A stretch of DNA of 64,000 bases. It comes from Lactarius indigo (lineage: Eukaryota > Basidiomycota > Agaricomycetes > Russulales > Russulaceae). The translations under genes were made by a program, and so were the position numbers. Numbering within the stretch: the stretch's first letter is position 1; each line of letters starts with the position of its first letter. Of this stretch, positions 8,226 to 58,380 are shown one piece after another. The notes beneath the pieces were generated by a model. It worked only from the letters and a program-made list of their open reading frames with translations. It ran no database searches and was not told the origin of the DNA. The DNA lies in contig JAFKAC010000044.1 in assembly GCA_025766275.1 (NCBI GenBank), forward strand, positions 248,001 through 312,000, written 5' to 3'.

Positions 8226-8759
8226 ATAATACATACATCTATTTACCTTTCCTTGCGGTGTTCCTCCGACCCCAGTATGAAGACCAATGATCTCGTCTAC
8301 GTAAATGTGGTTTCGACCGAAGACTGAGACTGTACTAAAGGGTTGACTGGGTATTATCTTAACAAATATAAGAACAAACGAACCAAATCAGTGGCCATAA
8401 TAAAGGCTGCAAATGACTCGTCGGAATGCTCTCGAGAAGGTGCAGTAAGGTGTTGTCGAATCTTCAGGTCAATATTGGCCTTGCAATATTCAGCGTTCGC
8501 ACCGATTAAAACCGATTCAGGTGACTCATTTGAGAGAGATAGGAAAGTCGCATGCTTCAAGATGATGATAACCGCTTTGACAAAAGGTTAAATAGGCGCT
8601 AAAGATAATAACGTGAAATACCAAGGATAAAATGATAATCAACGGCAAGACCGGTGGCAGTAAGCTAAAAAGATAAAAATTATAATAAGCTAGGGGTAGA
8701 TGGGTGTCATAGAAAGAGAATACGTTTTGAATGGCGGGAAGTGACATCATGAACACTAC
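8226..8759 (-). CDS. C-terminal exons of GTPase gene A
   Basis: These are the exons that follow the array. The 36-nt exon (8724-8759) is joined across an intron to a short exon coding L-T-A-T-G-L-A-V-D-Y. A phase-1 intron of about 47 nt leads to a hydrophobic stretch and the block K-H-A-T-F-L-S-L-S-N-E-S-P-E-S, ending A-A-F-I-M-A-T-D-L near 8395. Copy B shows the same frame with few substitutions, which argues for past or present selection on the protein. The hydrophobic stretch of about 17 residues could be a membrane anchor (inference). Confidence 0.6.
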
Positions 8760-11700
8760 CTGACGGACCTGTGAGATTTTTTGGTTGGGGGAGCATACAA
8801 AGAGCACATACAACCTGGAGAACCAAAGGTGAATGGCGTTAGCAGACTAGAATGGGGAGCATGCACGCACGCGCTAGTTGATCAGGGACAAGTACGATCA
8901 ATGGCAGAGTCAAAGACAGGGATGATCAACATGCAAAAGATGCGGAAAGGCCAACAGAAACTCACATCCTGAGGATCCGAGGGCGAGAGCCATCAGCAGG
9001 TGCGATACACAGCGACATATGACAGCCACTCACCAACTGGACAGACGAGGACAGCCATCGTCAGCAGGCTCGAAACACAGCGACACACAGCAGCCACTCA
9101 CATCCTGGACAGACGAGGACAGCCATCGTCAGCAAGCTCGAAACACAGCGACACACAGCAGCCACTCACAGGCTGGACAGACGAGGACAGCCATCGTCAG
9201 CAGGCTCGAAACACAGCGACACACAGCAGCCACTCACCAACTGGACAGACGAGGACAGCCATCGTCAGCAAGCTCGAAACACAGCGAGCCACAGCAACCA
9301 CTCACATACTGGACAGACGAGGACAGCCATCGTCAGCAGGCTCGAAACACAGCAACACACAGCAGCCACTCACCAACTGGACAGACGAGGACAGCCATCG
9401 TCAGCAAGCTCGAAACACAGCGACACACAGCAGCCACTCACGAACTGGACAGACGAGGACAGCCATCGTCAGCAGGCTCGAAACACAGCGACACACAGCA
9501 GCTACTCACTCTCTGGACAGACGAGGACAGCCATCGTCAGCAGGCTCGAAACACAACGACACACAGCAGCCACTCACATTCTGAACAGACAAGGACAGCC
9601 ATCGTCAGCAAGCTCGAAACACAGCGACACACAGCAGCCACTCACGAACTGGACAGACGAGGACAGCCATCGTCAGCAAGCTCGAAACACAGCGACACAC
9701 AGTAGCCACTCACTTCCTGGACAGACGAGGACAGCCATCGTCAGCAAGCTCGAAACACAGCGACACACAGCAGCTACTCACTCTCTGGACAGACGAGGAC
9801 AGCCATCGTCAGCAGGCTCGAAACACAGCGACACACAGTAGCCACTCACTTCCTGGACAGACGAGGACAGCCATCGTCAGCAAGCTCGAAACACAGCGAC
9901 ACACAGCAGCTACTCACTCTCTGGACAGACGAGGACAGCCATGGTCAGCAAGCTCGAAACACAGCGACACACAGCAGCCACTCACCAACTGGACAGACGA
10001 GGACAGCCATCGTCAGCAGGCTCAAAACACAGCGACACACAGCAGCCACTCACGAACTGGACAGACGAGGATAGCCATCGTCAGCAAGCTCGAAACACAG
10101 CGACACACAGTAGCCACTCACTTCCTGGACAGACGAGGACAGCCATCGTCAGCAAGCTCGAAACACAGCGACACACAGCAGCTACTCACCAACTGGACAG
10201 ACGAGGACAGTCATCGTCAGCAGGCTCAAAACACAGCGAGCCACAGCAACCACTCACATCCTGGACAGACGAGGATAGCCATCGTCAGCAGGCTCGAAAC
10301 ACAGCAACACACAGCAGCCACTTACATCCTGGACAGACGAGGACAGCCATGGTCAGCAGGCTCGAAACACAGCGACACACAGCAGCCACTTACATCCTGG
10401 ACAGACGAGGACAGCCATCGTCAGCAAGCTCGAAACACAGCGACACACAGCAGCTACTCACTCTCTGGACAGACGAGGACAGCCATCGTCAGCAGGCTCG
10501 AAACACAACGACCCACAGCAGCCACTCACATTCTGAACAGACAAGGACAGCCATGGTCAGCAAGCTCGAAACACAGCGACACACAGCGGCCACTCACTTC
10601 CTGGACAGACGAGGATAGCCATCGTCAGCAGGCTCGAAACACAGCGACACACAGCAGCCACTCACTTCCTGGACAGACGAGGACAGCCATCGTCAGCAGG
10701 CTCGAAACACAGTGACACACAGCAGCCACTCACGAACTGGACAGACGAGGACAGCCATCGTCAGCAAGCTCGAAACACAGCAACACATAGCAGCCACTCA
10801 CCAACTGGACAGACGAGGACAGTCATCGTCAGCAAGCTCGAAACACAGCAACACATAGCAGCCACTCACATACTGGACAGACGAGGACAGCCATCGTCAG
10901 CAAGCTCGAACCACAGCGACACACAGCAGCCACTCACTCTCTGGACAGACGAGGACAGCCATCGTCAGCAGGCTCGAAACACAGCGACACACAGCAGCCA
11001 CTCACTTCCTGGACAGACGAGGACAGTCATCGTCAGCAGGCTCGAAACACAGCGAGCCACAGCAACCACTCACATCCTGGACAGACGAGGATAGCCATCG
11101 TCAGCAGGCTCGAATCACAGCGACACACAAGAGCCACTCACCAACTGGACAGACGAGGACAGCCATCGTCAGCAGGCCCGAAATGTGAGTAAGGGCTGAC
11201 ACTTACCGACTAGTAGTTAAGCGGCATCGAGGATCATGAATCCTTTACCACAATTTAATACTGTTAATACGTACCCAGATACGTGGAAACGACCTAAGAC
11301 ATTCCCGAATTATATATTCGACCTCGGTGCTATTAATATGCGAACGGACACTGCAACGCTTGTTATCATCGACGCTCACTTTGCCCCTTCAATTGGCGCA
11401 CTCACCGCTCCAAAGCTAGTTTAACATTCAATCCTAAGTTGCCCTTTTGCACTGCCAAAAGCATCAATCCGACGATGTCGTCATTCAATGCTGCAGCTGT
11501 CGTCTCAATAAGCTTATCGCAGCCCATACTTTGCTTGTGCATTTCTGCCCAAAACCGTTAGCACTAACTCCATATTTGCCTTTCAACCCACTTTCTAATC
11601 TCACGAATCTAATACCATCATCAAGTGCACGCAAGTAGTGCTCTTCAAATTGTTCTTCTGCCACATTAGACACGTTGTCATTTGGGCTTCCGAAATCCTC

Positions 11701-12940
11701 CACATGAATTTGGACATTTCGTAGGAACTGATCATATTTTGTAAACACGACAACGACAGGGACTGCAAACGATTTTTTTAATACAGTCACGAATGTCCGT
11801 GATGACGCACCATTCCCGTCAGGACAGATGTCCTTGAAAAACCTCAGATCGAGCTGTGGTCGTTGGTTGTCCATTGGGACACAGTACCTCAAAATAATAT
11901 GATCGTCAGCTGGCGTACTCGTGAATACTCGAGAGTCCAAACCATATTGCATGTAATCTGTTTCGCAGTCGCCTTTCTCCACACTTTCGTCGAATAAATC
12001 CCTGCAAAATCCGGAGTTCGTCTTCGCTACCAGACTCAATACCGCGAGAGTCATGGAAAATGTAGCCCTTATTATTAGAGAACACGAGTTCGTCGTCGAT
12101 CGTGTGCTCGCCTCGCTAACTCCATGTTTAGAGGCAAAGAAGAGAGGTAATTATTATCACTAACGTCCATGGACGGGTCGAGTCTGACCTGATCGGAAGT
12201 GAGATCACATTCACAGACAAAAGGGTTGGACTACGTACCTCCTCCCCCCCTCTATGAATGACAGGGCTCTCTGTAGTTTCACATGTTCTCTGCAGAATCG
12301 ATGTCTTCCCCGCATTTGCCCTTCCTATAATAAGTACTCGGAACTGGAATTCTGGAATTAGGCGACGGTGTTGCCGGATGACGGTGTTTGAGAAGGTGAG
12401 CCGAGGGCCAAGAACGCGAGTGGCACCTGTCACCTATAGGAGGAATTCAACGGCTTGCTGGCACCAGAGAACAACCAAAGACCCACGGGTTTAGGTTTCC
12501 CGTACACAAAAGTTACGGTAACATGACGGTTGCTATCTGTGAAGCCTCTCAGCGTGAGGTGGACTGTACTAGGAGAAAGAGATCCCCACCTTCCAGACGG
12601 ACGACCTTGGAGTCTCCGAGCATGTATGGCTCAAACTCAACCGAAATCTCAGCAACCTTTTTTTTGAAAAGCGCTCGCTGGATGGTCAACGTTGCACTGC
12701 TGTGGGTCCTAACATGGCTGTGCGAAAGAAATTAGCATTCGATGGTGAGGGAAAACACGACAGACATTTCTGGTTTCCAAAGAACAGGGACTCCGTTCTT
12801 GAATTTGTTAGACTTGTATTTGACACCGGCATTGTCCTTGAAAACGAGCTCGAGGTCGGATGTAGGACGTTTCTCAATAAAATCGACAGATATTTCTACG
12901 CAAACACCAACTCTGCTCAGAAGCTGCAGGAGAAATGGTG
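8239..12940 (-). CDS. P-loop GTPase with single-codon microexon linker, copy A
   Basis: A mushroom-type G protein on the minus strand. Upstream exons (about 12,500-12,940) look like a C2-type beta sandwich (inference). The G-domain exon from M at 12,433 carries G1 G-R-A-N-A-G-K-T-S. Later exons carry D-S-R-G (G3) and T-K-Y-D (G4), with short introns placed identically in copy B. The last ordinary upstream exon ends in F-P-R-I-W at 11,275 in phase 0. About 36 three-nt microexons follow (11,209 down to 8812), then a 36-nt exon (V-V-F-M-M-S-L-P-A-I-Q-N), then a hydrophobic exon (G-L-A-V-D-Y-H-F-I-L-A-V-I-I-I-L-K) and an exon with S-N-E-S-P-E-S through A-T-D-L. The 3' end is uncertain; one splice choice stops at 8239. 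Nucleotide switching or membrane binding is inferred from motifs only. Confidence 0.7.
8812..8814 (-). other. Microexon GTT downstream of array A
   Basis: Three bases between a TTCTCCAG acceptor (branch CTAAC, 56-nt intron) and a GTATGT donor. Copy B has TTT here (54,310-54,312) with the same flanking splice signals. Confidence 0.55.
8871..8873 (-). other. Microexon CGC downstream of array A
   Basis: Three bases between a CAACTAG acceptor and a GTGCGT donor. The upstream intron is 92 nt. In copy B the same position (54,369-54,371) is CCC with donor GTGTGT, so the exon changed while its splice sites stayed usable. Confidence 0.5.
8966..8968 (-). other. Microexon GAT, unit 0 of array A
   Basis: It lies 68 bp from the first regular slot with a 65-nt intron between. 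That intron is diverged (acceptor GATCCTCAG) but keeps GTGAGT donors on both sides. Copy B has the same GAT at 54,464-54,466. Confidence 0.55.
9034..11144 (-). repeat. Tandem array of 32 units, 68 bp: 65-nt intron plus 3-nt microexon (copy A)
   Basis: Slots recur at exactly 68-bp steps from 9034-9036 to 11,142-11,144. On the minus strand each unit reads GTGAGT donor, a TGCTGACG branch site with its A 24 nt before the acceptor, CTGTCCAG acceptor, then three variable bases and the next GTGAGT. The base before each slot is always the G of AG. The codons used are TTG, GAT, GAA, AGA, TTC, TAT, AAT and CCT, never a stop. In gene order the 32 codons read LDERYLFEENRDDDLE, then FLREREFNRFLYLPDL. Two units have GTAAGT instead of GTGAGT, and two have CTGTTCAG instead of CTGTCCAG; both remain good splice signals. 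Splicing itself is inferred. Confidence 0.85.
11207..11209 (-). other. First microexon (TCG) after the G-domain exons, copy A
   Basis: The exon ending F-P-R-I-W stops at 11,275. A 65-nt intron (11,210-11,274, donor GTACGT, acceptor CTTAACTACTAG) leads to TCG, then a GTAAGT donor opens the array. Copy B has TGG at 56,635-56,637 after another 65-nt intron. Confidence 0.6.
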
Positions 12941-37569: not shown

Positions 37570-40500
37570 ATGCCTGTTGCTCCTTCCTCTGCTCTTGGTC
37601 TTGGCTCTGGCTCTGGACTTGGTTCTGTTTCTACTTCTGCCCCTGCTGTCCCCCCCACTTCTGCTCCTGCTGTTTCCCCCACTTCTGCCCCTGCCATCCC
37701 CCCTGCTCCTCCTGCCATCCCCCCTGCTCCTCCTACCATCCCCCCTGCCCCTGCCCCTCTTTCTGAAGCTGCCATGCACGTCACTCCTCCTACATCCCCT
37801 CAGCGTAGTCAACATGCTGCACGCCAGCAAGAGCGTGATAGCCGTCAAATGGGCAGTCCTGAAAATTGTCATACACCAGTAGCTCCCACTCTTCCCAGGC
37901 CACCTACCTTAAATGGCCAAGAGTACCATCATTTACCAGCTGATTTAGCTGCCCAGCTGGCTCACATTCCTCCTCATCCTATGCCTCTAAGGCACCGCCC
38001 CCGTCGTCTTCATGGCTCTGCTGCTGCTTCATCTGTAAGCCTTTTTTTTAATTTTAAAAGTATTTGCTCTAACTACTTTCTAAAAATTAATTAGATGCTT
38101 CCACCAGCACCACCTCTTCTGCCCCCTGCTTCCATCTCTGCTTCTGTCTCTGCCCCTATCCCTGCCCCTGCCCCTGCTTTGGTTCCTGCTGCTGCTTCTG
38201 GCTCTAGCTCTATTGTTGCTCCTATTCCTCCCCCCTTTGTTGCCCCCCCTATTTTGCCTCCTGCTCAGTTAGCTGCTATACATGCTCTCCTTCCACCTAA
38301 TCGTCCAGCCAATCCCATACAACCTTTTCATGTAAGCATAAATTAATTTTTTCAACTTTTTAATATAAAATACTAATTATATATATAGCATCCACAACAG
38401 CCTCCTCTCATACTTCCTATTGCACGCCATCCTTTTGACCCTGCTTGGGATGTTCATAACCTTGGAGACCTTACCATTCAATGCTCTGATTGCAAGGCCC
38501 TTCACTGGTTAGCTGAGCGCCTTTCCAGATCCTCCATGCGCAATCCCAAGTTTGGCATGTGTTGTTATACTGGCAAGATCTCCCTTCCACCTCTTCAGCA
38601 ACCTCCTCCTGAGTTGTCCCATCTCTTGACATCCCAAGACCCAATTGGAAAGAACTTCCACCTGCACATTCGAAATTATAACAGTGCATTGGCCATGACT
38701 TCTGTGGGAAGAAAACTGGATGAGTCCATCAACCAGAGAGGTGGAGGGCCATATACATTTAGGCTTCATGGAGAGCTCATTCACAGAGCTGGGTCTCTTT
38801 TGCCACCAGATGGGGATCAAGTTGCTCCCATCTATGCTCAGCTCTACATTTATGACTCTGATGTAGCTCTCAATCATCGCATGGCAAATGCGTGGAACTC
38901 CAATCTGGATCAGTTTACACTGCGCACCCTTCAAGACATGCTGTATCGCTCCCATCCAGCAGTTCAGCTCTATAGGCAGGCATATAAATTAACCTCTGCT
39001 ATGCCTAGAGATCAGCAGTGCCAGATTTCACTTCACTTTGATCCATCATGTGACAGGCGGCGCTATCAGGCCCCAGATGCTTCTGTCAAGGAGATAGCAG
39101 TCATTTTGCCAGGTGATGGTGATCAGCCCACTGGTGCTCAAGATATCATCCTCTATTGCAAGCATGGTGCTCCCCTCCAGTGCATCTCTGATCTTCATCC
39201 CTTCTATCCCTCATTGTGCTATGTTCTCCTCTATCCCACTGGCCAGCTTGGTTGGTATCCCACCATTCTCTATCAGCATATACAAGAGGATGCTCCACCT
39301 GATAGAGGGCATAAACATGTCACCATGGCTGAATTTTATCACTATCGCCTCTTTATTCGCCCCCCAGATGTGGAGTCCAATCACCTCTTTCTCACTGGCA
39401 AGCTCTTACAGGAGTTTGTATGTGAAGTGTGGGCTGTCACTGAGCAAAACCGTCTTAGCTTCATCAGATTTAATCAGCGCAAGCTGCGTGTTAAGGTCTA
39501 CCAGGGCTTGGCAGATGCAGTAGCTGCTGATGCTGATACTGACTGGCATGAGCTGGGCACAAGGTTCATTCTCCCTTCCTCCTTCTCTGGCAGCACTTGC
39601 AACATGCAGCAACACTGTCAAGATGCCTATGCCATCAATCGCTACTATGGTGGAGGTGATCTTTTCATCACTATGACTGCCAACCCTGCCTGGCCTGAAA
39701 TTCAGTCTGCACTTTTACATGGCCAGACTCCCTCTGACCATCCTGACTTGGTGGTCCGTGCTTTTAAAGCCAAGCTTGAATCACTTATAAAGGACATCAA
39801 ACAAGGAGCACTGGGTCAGATCAATGCCTATCTCTACACCATTGAGTTCTAGAAGCGTGGCCTCCCTCATGCCCACATCATTGTCTTTCTTAAGCCTCAT
39901 GCCTCCCCAGAGGACATTGACAGCCTCATGTCCTCTGAGTTTCCTGAGGACAATGCTGAGCTGCTTGATCTCATCAAGAAGTTCATGGTTCATGGGCCTT
40001 GCGGAACTCAGAATTCCAATGCACCTTGCATGGTAAATGGGGTGTGCTCTAAGGGCTTTCCTAAGCGCTTTATGGAGGAGACCACTGTCACTGAAGACTC
40101 TTATGCTCGCACTAGGCGTCGCAATACTGGCCAGACTCATGAAGTCAGAGGAAAGCAGGTCAACAATCAGTGGGTTGTCTGCCACTCCAAGTATCTCATC
40201 TGGAAGTATCACTGCCACATCAACATAGAGTCAATTGCCTCTGTCAAAGCCATCAAGTACATCTACAAGTATGTGTACAAGGGCCATGACCGCATCACCA
40301 TGGAGTTTGGCACCTGCAGAGATGAGATCAGGCAATATCTGGATGCACGCTATGTTAGCAGCTGTGAAGCTCATTGGCGCCTCTATATGTTTGCTATGCA
40401 GGAGCATGATCCCACTGTCATTTGCCTTCAGGTTCACCCTCCCAATCACCAGCCTGTTGTGTTCAACCCTGAGCAAGATGGGAACCTCAATGATGTTCTA

Positions 40501-53759: not shown

Positions 53760-56700
53760 GTGTTCCTCCGACCCCAGTATGAAGACCAATGATCTCGTCT
53801 ACGTAAATGTGGTTTCTACCAAAGGCTGAGACTGTACTAAAGGCTTGACTGGGTATTATCTTAACAAATATAAGAACAACGAACCAAATCAGTGGCCATG
53901 ATAAAGGCTGCAAATGACTCGTCGGAATGCTCTTGAGAAGGTGCAGTAAGGTGTTGTCGAATCTTTAGGTCAATATTTGCCTTGCAATATTCAGCGTTCG
54001 CACCGGTTAAAACCGATTCAGGTGACTCATTTGAGAGAGATAGGAAAGTCGCATGCTTCAAGATTAGGATAAGCGCTTTGACAAAAAGTTAAATAGGCAC
54101 TAAAGATAATAACATGAAATACCAAGGATCAAATGATAGTCGACGGCAAGACCGGTGACAGTAAGCTAAAAAGATAAAAATCATAAGCTAGGGGTAGATG
54201 AGTGTCATAGAAAGAGAACACATTTTGAATGGCGGGAAGTGACATCATCCACACTACCTGACGAACAAGTGAGATTTTCTGGTTGAGAGAGCATATAGAG
54301 AGCACATACAAACTGGAGAACTACAGGTGAATGTCATTAGAAGGCTGGAATGGGGAGCATGCACACACGGGCTAGTTGATCAGGGACGAGTACGATCAAT
54401 GGCAGAGTCAAAGACAGGGATGATCAACACACAAAATATGTGGAAAGGCCAACAGAAACTCACATCCTGAGGATCCGAGGGCGAGAGTCGTCGGCAGGCG
54501 CGATACACAGCGACATATGACAGATACTCACCAACTGGAGAGCCGAGGGCAGCCATCGTCAGCAGGCTTGAAACACAGCAACACACAGCAGCCACTAACT
54601 CTCTGGACAGACGAGAACAGCCGTCGTCAGCAAGCTCGACACAGTGACACACAGCAGCCACTCACATCCTGGACAGACGAGGACAGCCATCGTCAGCAGA
54701 CTCGACGCACAGCGACACACATAAGCCACTCACTCTCTGGACAGACGAGGATAGCCATCGTCAGCAGACTTGAAACATGGCGACACACAGCAGCCACTCA
54801 CCAACTGGACAGACGAGGACAGTCATCATCAGCAGCTCGAAACACAGTGACACACAGCAGCCACTCACATCCTGGACAGACGAGGACAGCCATCGTCAGC
54901 AGACTCGACGCACAGTGACACACAGCAGCCACTCACTCTCTGGACAGACGAGGATAGCCGTCGTCAGCAGACTCGAAACACAGCGACACACAGCAGCCAC
55001 TCACATCCTGGACAGACGAGGACAGCCACCATCAGCAGACACAAAAAACAGCGACACACAGCAGCCACTCACCAACTGGACAGACAAGGACAGCCATCGT
55101 CAGCAGACTCTAAACACAGCGACACACAGCAGCCACTCACCAACTGGACGGACGAGGACAGCCATCGTCAGCAGACTCGAAACACAGCGACTCACAGCAA
55201 CCACTCACATCCTGGACGGACGAGGACAGCCGTCGTCAGCAGGCTCGAAACACAGCAACACACAGCAACCACTCACGAACTGGATAGACGAGGACAGCCA
55301 TCGTCAGCAGACTTGAAACACAACAACACACAGCAGCCACTCACATCCTGGACAGACAAGGACAGCCACCGTCAGCAGGCTCGAAACACAGCGACACACA
55401 GCAGTCACTCACGAACTGGACAGACGAGGACAGCCACCGTCAGCAGACTCGAAGCACAGCGACACACAGCAGCCACTCACAGCCTGGACAGACGAGGACA
55501 GCCATCGTCAGCAGACTCGACGCACAGCAACACATAGCAGCCACTCACAGCCTGGACAGACGAGGACGGCCATCACCAGCAGACTCAAAACACAGCGACA
55601 CACAGCAGTCACTCACATACTGGACAGACGAGGACAGTCATCGTCAGCAGACTCGAAACACAGCAACACACAGCAGCCACTCACGAACTGGACAGACGAG
55701 GACAGCCATCATCAGCAGACTTGACACACAGCGACACACAGCAGCCACTCACATACTGGACAGACGAGGACAGCCATCATCAGCAGACTCGAAACACAGC
55801 GACACACGGCAGCCACTCACCAACTGGACAGACAAGGGCAGCCATTGTCAGCAGACTTGAAATACAGAGATACACAGCAGCCACTCACATTCTGGACAGA
55901 CGAGGACAGCCATCGTCAGCAGACTTGAAACACAGCGACACACAGCAGCCACTCACATCCTGGACAGACGAGGACAGCCACTGTCAGCAGACTTGAAACA
56001 CGGCGACACACAGCAGCCACTCACCAACTGGACGGACGAGGACAGCCATCGTCAGCAGACTCGAAACACAGCGACACACAGCAGCCACTCACATCCTGGA
56101 CAGACGAGGACAGCGATTGTCAGCAGGCGAGAAACACAGTGACACACAGCAGCCACTCACCAACTGGACAGACGAGGACAGTCATCATCAGCAGACTCGA
56201 AACACAGCGACACACAGCAGCCACTCACATTCTTGACAGACGAGGACAGTCATCGTCAGCAGACTCTAAACACAGCGACACACAGCAGCCACTCACCCAC
56301 TGGACAGACGAGGACAGCCATCATCAGCAGACTCGACACACAGCGACACACAGCAGCCACTCACATTCTGGACAGACGAGGACAGCCATCGTCAGCAGGC
56401 TCGACATACAGCGACACACAGCAGCCACTCACCAACTGGACGGACAAGGACAGCCATCGTCAGCAGACTCGACACACAACAACACACAGCAGCCACTCAC
56501 ATCCTGGACAGACAAGGACAGCCGTCGTCAGCAGATTTGAAGCACAGCGACACACAGCAGCCACTCACTTTCTGGACAGACGAGGTCAGCCGTCATCAGC
56601 AGGGTCGAAACTGTGAGTAGGGGCTGACACCCACCCACTAGTAGTTAAGCGGCATCAAGGAACATGAATCCTTTGCCATAATTTCAAAATATTGATACTT

Positions 56701-58380
56701 ACCCAGATGCGTGGAAACGACCTAAGACATTCCTGAATTATATCTTCGACCTTGGTGCTATTATGCGAACGGACACTGCAATGTTTGTTATCATTGACGC
56801 CTACTTTGCCCCTTCAATTGGCGCACTCACCGCTTCAAAGCTCTTTTAACACTCAATTCTAAGTTACCCCTTTGCACTGCCAAAAGCATCAATTCGACGA
56901 TGTCGTCATTCAATGCTGCAGCTGTCGTCTCAATAAGCTTATCGCAGCCCATATTTTGCTTGTGCATTTCTGCCCAAAACCGTTAGCAATTACTCCATAT
57001 TCGCCTTTCAACTCACTTTCTAATCGCACAAATCTAACACCATTATCAAGTGCACGCAAGTAGTGCTCTTCAAATTGTTTTTCTGCCACACCAGACACGT
57101 TATCATCTGGGCTTCTGAAATCCTCCATATGAATTTGGACATTTCGTAGGAATTGATCATATTTTGTAAACACAACAACGACAGGCACTGAAAACGATTT
57201 TTTTAATACAGTCACGAACGTCTGTAATGACAAACCCTTGGACAAACCATTCCCGTCAGGACAGATGTCCCTGAAAAACTTCAGATCGAGCTCTGGTCGT
57301 TGGTTGTCCATTGGGACACAGTACCTCAAAATAATATGATCGTCAGCTGGCGTAGTCGTGAACACTCGAGAGTCCAAACCATATCGCATGTAATCTGTTT
57401 CGCAGTTGCCTTTCTCCACACTTTCGTCGAATAAATCCCTGCAAAATCCCAAGTTCGTCTTCGCTACCAGACTCAATACCACGAGAGTCATGGAAAATGA
57501 AGCCCTTATTATTAGAGAACACGAGTTCATCATCGATCCTGTGCTCGCCTCGCTAACTCCATGTTTAGAGGCAAAGAAGAGAGGTAATACTATTATCACT
57601 TACGTCCATGGACGGGTCGAGTCTAACCTGATCGAAAGTGAGATCATGTTCACAGACGAAAATTTTGGACCACATACCTCCTCACTTCCTCGATGAATGA
57701 CTGGGCTCTCTGTAGTTTCACATATTCTCTGAAGAATCGATGTCTTCCCCGCATTTGCCCTTCCTATAATAAGTACTCGGAACTGGACTTCGGGAATTCG
57801 ACGACGGTGTTGCTGGATGACGGTATTTGAGAAGGTGGGCCGAGGGCCAAGAACGCGTGTGGCATCTGCCAACTATAGGAGGAATTGAACGGCTTGCTGG
57901 CACAAGAGAACAACCAAAGACCCACGGGTTTAGGTTTCCCGTACACAAAGGCTACGGTAATGCGACGGTCGCTATCTGTGAAGCCTCTCGGCATGAGGTG
58001 GACTGTACTAGGAGTAAGAAGTCTCCACCTTCCAGACGGGAAACCTTGGAGTCTCCGAGGTTGTATGGCTCAAACTGAACCGAAATCTCAGCAACGCTTT
58101 TTTTGAAAAGCGCTCGCTGGATGATGAATGTTGCACTGGTGTGGGTCCTAACATGGCTGTGCGAAGAAAATTAACATTCGATGGTGAGGGCAAATACGAC
58201 AGACATTTCAGGTTCCCAAAGAATAGGGACTCCGTTCTTGAATTTGTTAGACTTGTATTTGACACCGGCATCGTCCTTGAAAATGAGTTCGAGGTCGGAT
58301 GTAGGACGTTTCTCAATGAAATCGACAGATATTTCTATGCAAACATCAATTCTGCTCAGGAGCTGCAGGAGCAATGATGA
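53760..58380 (-). CDS. P-loop GTPase with single-codon microexon linker, copy B
   Basis: Paralogue of the gene at 8239-12,940, with the same exon borders. G domain from M at 57,872: G-R-A-N-A-G-K-T-S, D-S-R-G, T-K-Y-D. Small exons are joined through GTATGT, GTAAGT and GTTTGG donors, and the exon ending F-P-R-I-W stops at 56,703. Then come 35 three-nt microexons (56,637 to 54,310), the exon V-V-W-M-M-S-L-P-A-I-Q-N, the hydrophobic exon G-L-A-V-D-Y-H-L-I-L-A-L-I-L-I-L-K, and the S-N-E-S-P-E-S exon. C2-like exons lie at 58,100-58,380. The frame is kept through all readable exons. The true 3' end is unsettled: the last exon reads Q-A-F-S-T-V-S-A-F-G-R-N-H-I-Y in one splice choice. Confidence 0.7.
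54532..56571 (-). repeat. Tandem array of 31 intron-plus-microexon units (copy B)
   Basis: The same unit as array A. The minus-strand codons, in gene order, are KDLNWNLDLDNLYFYA, then AFDFDLLDRDLRDRL. Codons seen are TTG, GAT, TTC, AGA, AAT, TAT, GCT, TGG and AAA, with no stop. Unit length varies by 1-2 nt in places (for example 66 nt between 54,600 and 54,666), always inside the intron and never in the 3-nt exon. AG and GT borders are kept in all units. One donor is GTTAGT. The CTGA(C/T) branch word is lost in one unit (about 55,570). Confidence 0.85.

Follow-up and report, generated by a model that had tools for sequence, protein, structure and literature searches.

Tandem arrays of predicted one-codon exons in a GTPase gene family of the fungus Lactarius indigo

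Two GTPase genes and their tandem arrays

The stretch of DNA analyzed (64,000 nucleotides of Lactarius indigo contig JAFKAC010000044.1, referred to as the window) hosts two paralogous genes, A and B, on the minus strand. Each is made up of seven exons in open frame, running from a P-loop exon to an exon ending in ...SFPRIW, and both match annotated proteins (Table 1). The seven introns of gene A located ahead of the core array measure 47-65 nt. Scanned against Pfam, the spliced part of gene A (283 aa) returned five weak families of the P-loop GTPase type, and neither a NACHT domain nor a repeat family; PF01926 (MMR_HSR1) scored 19 bits, below the curated cut-off of 21.9, and is carried by several relatives. 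The N-terminal part of the protein includes 118 aa free of any Pfam match. The ordinary exons of the two genes look to be under purifying selection, since dN between A and B (0.052) is well below dS (0.141; dN/dS 0.37, 257 codons in six exons). Both genes reside within a segmental duplication (window 12.3-14.5 kb and 57.7-59.9 kb), which by eye reaches well upstream of either. Elsewhere in the window, short repeats in tandem (37587-37752), C-rich, 12-24 nt in length and overlapping one another, perhaps belong to a proline-rich coding region.

In gene A the FPRIW exon is followed by a tandem array spanning positions 8812-11209 of the minus strand. It consists of 32 core slots at an exact spacing of 68 nt, from 11144-11142 down to 9036-9034, and of four flanking 3-nt slots, for a total of 36. 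Core slots are bracketed by CAG and GTGAG, the latter being replaced by GTAAG behind two of them. The intervening 65-nt introns have a mean pairwise identity of 94.6% (minimum 84.6%); 25 of 31 are distinct, and 10 pairs are identical. An earlier note on this DNA had described 3-nt slots with splice-like borders in 68-bp units, further 3-nt exons at 11,207, 8966, 8871 and 8812, an upstream exon ending in phase 0 and a predicted gain of about 36 codons. The slots, their number and the phase were borne out on re-reading, the frame of the seven exons being open up to FPRIW. Two of its terms need adjustment: the "32 exact 68-bp units" are exact in spacing, not in sequence (91% matches between units according to TRF), and the "identical" 65-nt introns are near-identical. 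A second array, found at 54310-56637, belongs to gene B. Straight translation of the repeat is ruled out in both arrays, the reading frames holding 27-29 stops in array A and 22-38 in array B.

Table 1. Exons and slots of genes A and B (positions in the window)
Feature	Position	Strand	Remarks
Gene A, P-loop exon (GRANAGKTS)	12239..12429	-	open frame, donor GTACGT; weak MMR_HSR1; 5' end provisional
Gene A, 24-nt exon VRLDPSMD	12165..12188	-	open frame; residues recur in P0001 and others
Gene A, exon RGEHTIDDEL...RLHAIW	11943..12115	-	open frame, annotated-protein match
Gene A, exon YCVPMDNQRP...	11811..11887	-	open frame, annotated-protein match
Gene A, exon VPVVVVFTKYD...	11592..11762	-	open frame, annotated-protein match
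Gene A, exon MHKQSMGCDKLIETTAAALNDD...	11406..11544	-	open frame, annotated-protein match
Gene A, final ordinary exon ahead of the array, ...SFPRIW, phase 0 end	11275..11350	-	FPxIW motif also in P0002, P0003, P0007
Array A, first 3-nt slot, TCG (Ser)	11207..11209	-	after 65-nt intron 11274-11210
Array A core, 32 one-codon slots, LDERYLFEENRDDDLEFLREREFNRFLYLPDL	9034..11144	-	exact 68-nt spacing
Array A, 3-nt slot GAT (Asp)	8966..8968	-	also 68 nt past the core
Array A, 3-nt slot CGC (Arg)	8871..8873	-	flank
Array A, 3-nt slot GTT (Val)	8812..8814	-	flank
Gene A, inferred 36-nt exon past the array, VVFMMSLPAIQN	8724..8759	-	SLPAIQN in P0121, SLSTIQN in P0080
Gene A, inferred exon LTATGLAVDYHFIL	8622..8664	-	roughly colinear with P0080
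Gene A, inferred C-terminal exon AVIIILKHATFLSLSNESPES...IMATDL	8384..8574	-	aligned to P0121; end uncertain
Gene B, seven exons laid out like gene A, ending ...SFPRIW	56703..57868	-	open frame
Gene B, first slot TGG, after an intron	56635..56637	-	read by eye
Array B core, 31 one-codon slots, KDLNWNLDLDNLYFYAAFDFDLLDRDLRDRL	54532..56571	-	spacings of 67 and 66 nt (two) are changes in introns, not in slots
Array B, end slots GAT (54466-54464), CCC (54371-54369), TTT (54312-54310)	54310..54466	-	flank

Arrays and predicted coding content of the slots across the genome

A pattern search of the L. indigo genome (90.3 Mb, 291 contigs) revealed many more copies, and array regions were then fetched piecewise. 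Slots were recognized by separate models for the two splice sites, slot length being left free between 0 and 40 nt. In the 28 array places read, some of which are cut by the edge of the fetched stretch, 879 slots were found, 877 of them 3 nt long; the remaining two, both at C36, measure 2 nt. Fully read arrays contain 12 to 58 recognized slots. The exact motif CAG-N3-GTGAGTGGCTG, counted genome-wide and hence free of fetching bias, occurs in 921 copies with N3, in none with N2 and in four with N4, and its reversed control gave no match genome-wide; chance splice-like motifs are thereby ruled out. Fetched GTPase loci account for 532 of the 921 copies, and among the first 100 matches listed one lone copy (C13) is located away from an array. 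Splicing signals are nearly always complete in the 709 introns analyzed: GTRAG is found in 689, CTRAY at the fixed position 38 in 664, and the terminal AG in 707.

Exons flanking the arrays were placed genome-wide. The 48 upstream and 48 downstream matches listed give 41 pairs, seven matches of each kind being unpaired. The partners are separated by 1.4-5.8 kb in all 41 loci, as measured by exon positions, with part of the gaps read through; besides the array, the gap includes the FPRIW exon and the short post-array exon. The shortest gap corresponds to the locus of the 12-slot array. Arrays were found in all of seven extra family copies fetched. The GTPase family is thus made up of at least 41 placed loci, genes A and B among them.

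Some loci deserve separate mention. The arrays at C231:195.5-200 kb, C231:395-398 kb and C223:163-166.7 kb share their first 16 recognized slots in translation, and are either recent duplicates or assembly haplotypes. The 47-slot array of a paralog at L059 (C218:509600-513600) gives a long, charged, coiled-coil-like peptide, NSREYEERMKEHELKKRSKQYMEEYLRQQMKEYLNQRLELSERVRSS, featuring a set of residues unlike those of the window arrays. A block of five recognized units at C223:276449-276721 and 277231 lies near a C-terminal exon lacking an upstream partner, and is perhaps a truncated family member.

The coding potential of the slots was evaluated in 25 non-redundant arrays (835 slots), the near-copies C231:395318, C223:163190 and C231:226853 having been dropped. 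When slots are read in phase 0, 43 codon types and not a single stop are found, against 96.9 stops expected from 2000 within-array positional shuffles (sd 6.8, minimum 73). When joined slots are read in the other phases, stops amount to 41 out of 810 codons in phase 1 and 122 out of 810 in phase 2, which disfavors both; the number of stop-free arrays falls from 25 of 25 (phase 0) to nine (phase 1) and two (phase 2). Of the three phases, it is phase 0, in register with the upstream exon, that is most open. The slots of the 921 genome-wide motif copies similarly include neither TAA nor TGA, and the five NAG slots found among them are all GAG, none TAG. Repeated codons weigh heavily in the test. 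Counting distinct codon types per array lowers the expected stops to 22.8, and collapsing repeats to the 43 codon types found genome-wide leaves just 2.2 (P = 0.07), so that the strength of the test rests on the many arrays.

Codon usage in the slots is strongly skewed. GAT outnumbers GAC 117 to 1, GAA outnumbers GAG 128 to 6, and AGA outnumbers AGG 138 to 1; AAA and CAA occur 15 and 10 times, AAG and CAG never. Phe codons are less skewed (66 TTC, 26 TTT). The ordinary exons of genes A and B, unlike the slots, mix synonymous codons, and NAG codons make up 44 of 565 codons in these exons versus six of 835 slots. An NAG slot located behind CAG would provide a second acceptor, with loss of the codon, and splicing would therefore select against NAG; the codon bias of the slots fits such a constraint.

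Slot diversity and proteins crossing the array site

Within arrays, slot columns surpass nearly all intron columns in variability. Columns were ranked in arrays offering ten or more exact 68-nt units (22 of 25). In each of these the three slot columns belong to the six most variable out of 68, and in 12 of the 22 they occupy precisely the first three ranks. Within-array pairs of units with identical downstream introns (65 of 65 bases) were collected from the 28 places, and the slot differs in 61% of the 167 pairs.

Variation between arrays was assessed in 10 chosen pairs, leaving aside aligned units whose introns differ at more than six positions. The arrays at C2:49072 and C231:103657 are recent duplicates with 38 units in alignment. 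Their introns differ at 0.4% and their slots at 13% of sites; seven of 38 slots changed, four of them at all three bases, and among the 32 pairs of units whose introns are identical, the slot differs in four. Other pairs show the same trend, such as C223:91649 and C223:181924 (introns 4.6%, slots 39%). Rapid slot change is not universal, because in an older trio (C223:142400, C36:113150, C223:1337) slots differ at 2-9% per site and introns at about 4%; here the array peptide looks kept rather than scrambled. Diversified pairs and conserved trio alike suit a translated segment that is sometimes diversified and sometimes conserved.

Proteins related to the family were searched for molecules crossing an array. 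Five of 120 proteins among the matches listed are encoded by JGI contigs of 1.1-3.0 kb (the longest measuring 3017 bases) in one frame across L. indigo intron sites, and are probably RNA-derived. One of them, P0080, is an unbroken 494-aa ORF in which FPYIW and SLSTIQN are separated by 63 residues and followed by the C-terminal part. In another, P0079, FPYIW-FFFN is followed by 21 residues that match a translation of the unit intron with a score of 64, compared with 39 for the best among 200 shuffles, and P0079 thus looks like the product of a molecule with an array intron retained. The same may hold, less clearly, for P0057, in which 11 residues precede VSGC plus four residues, a tail too short to be scored. 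The inserts of P0080 and P0079 could alternatively stem from ordinary longer exons or from a retrocopy; no retrocopy spanning a spliced array was found in L. indigo among the matches listed. Two annotated relatives, P0121 (L. quietus) and P0092, pass from the FPYLW/FPYIW exon to SLPAIQ in only 8 and 5 residues, respectively. Since the following exon supplies some five of these, there is room for no more than a few array codons in either protein, the pattern expected of an array that is absent or skipped.

Many other proteins stop in this region. Eight annotated L. indigo proteins among P0001-P0010 end at or ahead of the array, and the JGI entries P0035, P0057, P0071 and P0079 end near it. An FPxIW-like motif was detected in 58 of 122 proteins, 53 of which have a testable tail; the tail matches the unit intron in 17 and gives no match in 36. 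Matching tails were found in L. sanguifluus, L. vividus, L. hatsudake, L. hengduanensis, L. pseudohatsudake, L. tabidus and one JGI entry, the match in L. quietus being weak (35 against 33). Because 17 of 53 tails match the unit intron, arrays seem widespread in the genus Lactarius, with many gene models failing there.

Searching with the gene A array joined to the C-terminal part retrieved two proteins among 301 candidates, P0121 and P0122. In the latter, from L. indigo, the annotation joins the family C-terminal exon to a PF00578 protein unrelated to it, perhaps because a gene model went wrong next to an array. The only relative of the P0080 segment among 865 candidates was P0080 itself. In viral contigs the DNA pattern of the unit gave no match, and four stretches fit a P0080 pattern, none encoding a relative. 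The AlphaFold model of P0080 has a mean pLDDT of 61.6; the array segment (residues 283-345) is predicted as a mostly unstructured stretch between helices, and no surface was modelled for it because pLDDT there is mostly below 50. Foldseek returned six PDB matches with E values of 0.001 or lower; each of them is weak and involves a G domain, the nearest being G-alpha and EngB.

Proposed splicing of the arrays and relation to known systems

The earlier note had read array A as a series of one-codon microexons. This reading gains support from the length of the slots, the lack of stops, the open phase 0, the diversity of the slots, the intron signals and the 63 residues of P0080. We regard it as likely (probability about 0.85) that members of this GTPase family carry 3-nt exons spliced in series between near-identical introns, allowing codon-by-codon diversification and perhaps serving recognition. 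The 65-nt introns of L. indigo would be removed one by one, constitutively, by intron definition, and the joined slot codons would carry on in frame from the exon ahead of the array. Unequal crossing-over and gene conversion among units may exchange codons, near-identical introns making exchange possible anywhere in the array with no shift of frame, and selection would keep slots diverse while introns are homogenized. The array segment, predicted to be unstructured, might form a surface for recognition exposed on an intracellular GTPase. That the arrays work as a eukaryotic codon-cassette system, in which introns serve as recombination tracks and single amino acids of a recognition GTPase are swapped, gained or lost in frame, seems to us slightly favored over the opposite.

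Splicing may be less ordered than this. Any 5' site could be joined to any later 3' site, and a cloud of in-frame isoforms with different subsets of codons would result, diversity arising mainly at the RNA level. Such loose splicing is compatible with one-codon exons; splice sites are nearly alike, every skip is in frame, and P0079, less clearly P0057, resembles a product of array-intron retention. Yet short introns of fixed length would favor pairing of neighboring sites, and loose splicing alone leaves unexplained both the diversity of slots at the DNA level and the three-base changes between recent duplicates. We consider it rather unlikely.

Tandem repeats of 68 nt act like minisatellites, and the array might be a noncoding minisatellite within one large intron removed in a single step, splice-like motifs being merely part of the repeat. 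The short crossings of P0121 and P0092 agree with this. The intron, however, would be about 2.5 kb long, compared with 47-65 nt for the seven that precede the core array in gene A, and neither the constant slot length (877 of 879), the lack of stops (0 against 96.9) and the hypervariability of the slots, nor the 63 residues of P0080 would be accounted for, which makes this explanation improbable. We judge equally poor the chances that the array serves regulation or decay, in which case splicing fails there and the transcript ends or meets a premature stop, leaving a GTPase truncated near FPRIW. The proteins ending at, before or near the array would be its products, but a C-terminal exon is found at the 41 paired loci and in P0080, P0121 and P0092, and stop-free, variable slots are unexpected if nothing past the array is translated. 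Least probable is that coding slots owe their diversity to dedicated targeted mutagenesis or templated 3-nt replacement rather than to recombination and selection: changes of all three bases (TTG to GAT) between duplicates with 0.4% intron difference, slots differing in four of 32 identical-intron pairs, and the dominance of one codon for most amino acids may be invoked in its favor, but conversion would leave the same picture where the units involved have nearly identical introns.

One-codon exons spliced in series share features with several systems. Schistosome micro-exon genes and aphid bicycle genes produce variable proteins from many short exons, those of schistosomes mostly multiples of 3 nt. 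In both, exons exceed one codon in length, introns are not known to form a tandem repeat, and the proteins are secreted; here predicted exons are of one codon, introns form a tandem repeat, and the gene encodes a GTPase mostly from ordinary exons. TAL effectors also feature near-identical repeats with a tiny hypervariable position, which carries their specificity; they are bacterial, translated and devoid of introns, whereas the repeats described here are intron-like and reside in a fungus. Introner elements are near-identical introns dispersed over many genes, and in recursive splicing a 5' site is found close behind a 3' site. The arrays read here differ from introners in being tandem, at a single site of one gene family, with one codon between introns.

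At 3 nt in 877 of 879 cases, the slots fall within the length by which microexons are defined (at most 30 nt). Single microexons of 1-3 nt flanked by complete introns are described for mouse Ncam and Drosophila troponin T (PMC8042270) and for Fusarium CYP621A, the latter with a one-nucleotide exon (PMC12940212). A 3-nt exon between complete introns is what the arrays are predicted to have in common with them; the exons reported there are single, while up to 58 were recognized here in tandem, with near-identical introns and differing codons (PMC8042270, PMC12940212). Tandem arrays of one-codon exons were not found among the literature matches listed, which cover few subscription journals and preprints and report single exons of 1-3 nt only. 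The statement of the earlier note that no gene with tens of tandem 3-nt exons is known to have been described is in line with this result.

In the hnwd genes of Podospora anserina, which act in non-self recognition, a WD40 repeat homogenized by recombination has four selected codons per unit and is itself translated (PMC2873952). Both systems are fungal, and both rely on a homogenized tandem repeat with few diversifying positions per unit; in contrast to hnwd, the repeat is here intron-like except for one codon (PMC2873952). Gene A does not have the make-up of an hnwd-type NLR, which combines a NACHT or NB-ARC domain with translated WD40, ANK or TPR repeats, as neither NACHT nor a repeat family was found in the Pfam scan, and the repeat has stops in every frame. 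By likeness to the Podospora genes, a role in recognition may be envisaged for the array segment.

Should series of one-codon exons be spliced as predicted, genes of this family would come close to the minimum size of an exon, dozens of times in series, and would provide the means to test how a spliceosome keeps tens of near-identical splice sites paired in the right order. Exon shuffling would operate at the resolution of one amino acid, with introns as the recombination substrate of a diversity system. One-codon arrays would further account for the many annotated family members examined here that stop or stray at the array, and part of the Lactarius proteome would be absent from databases.
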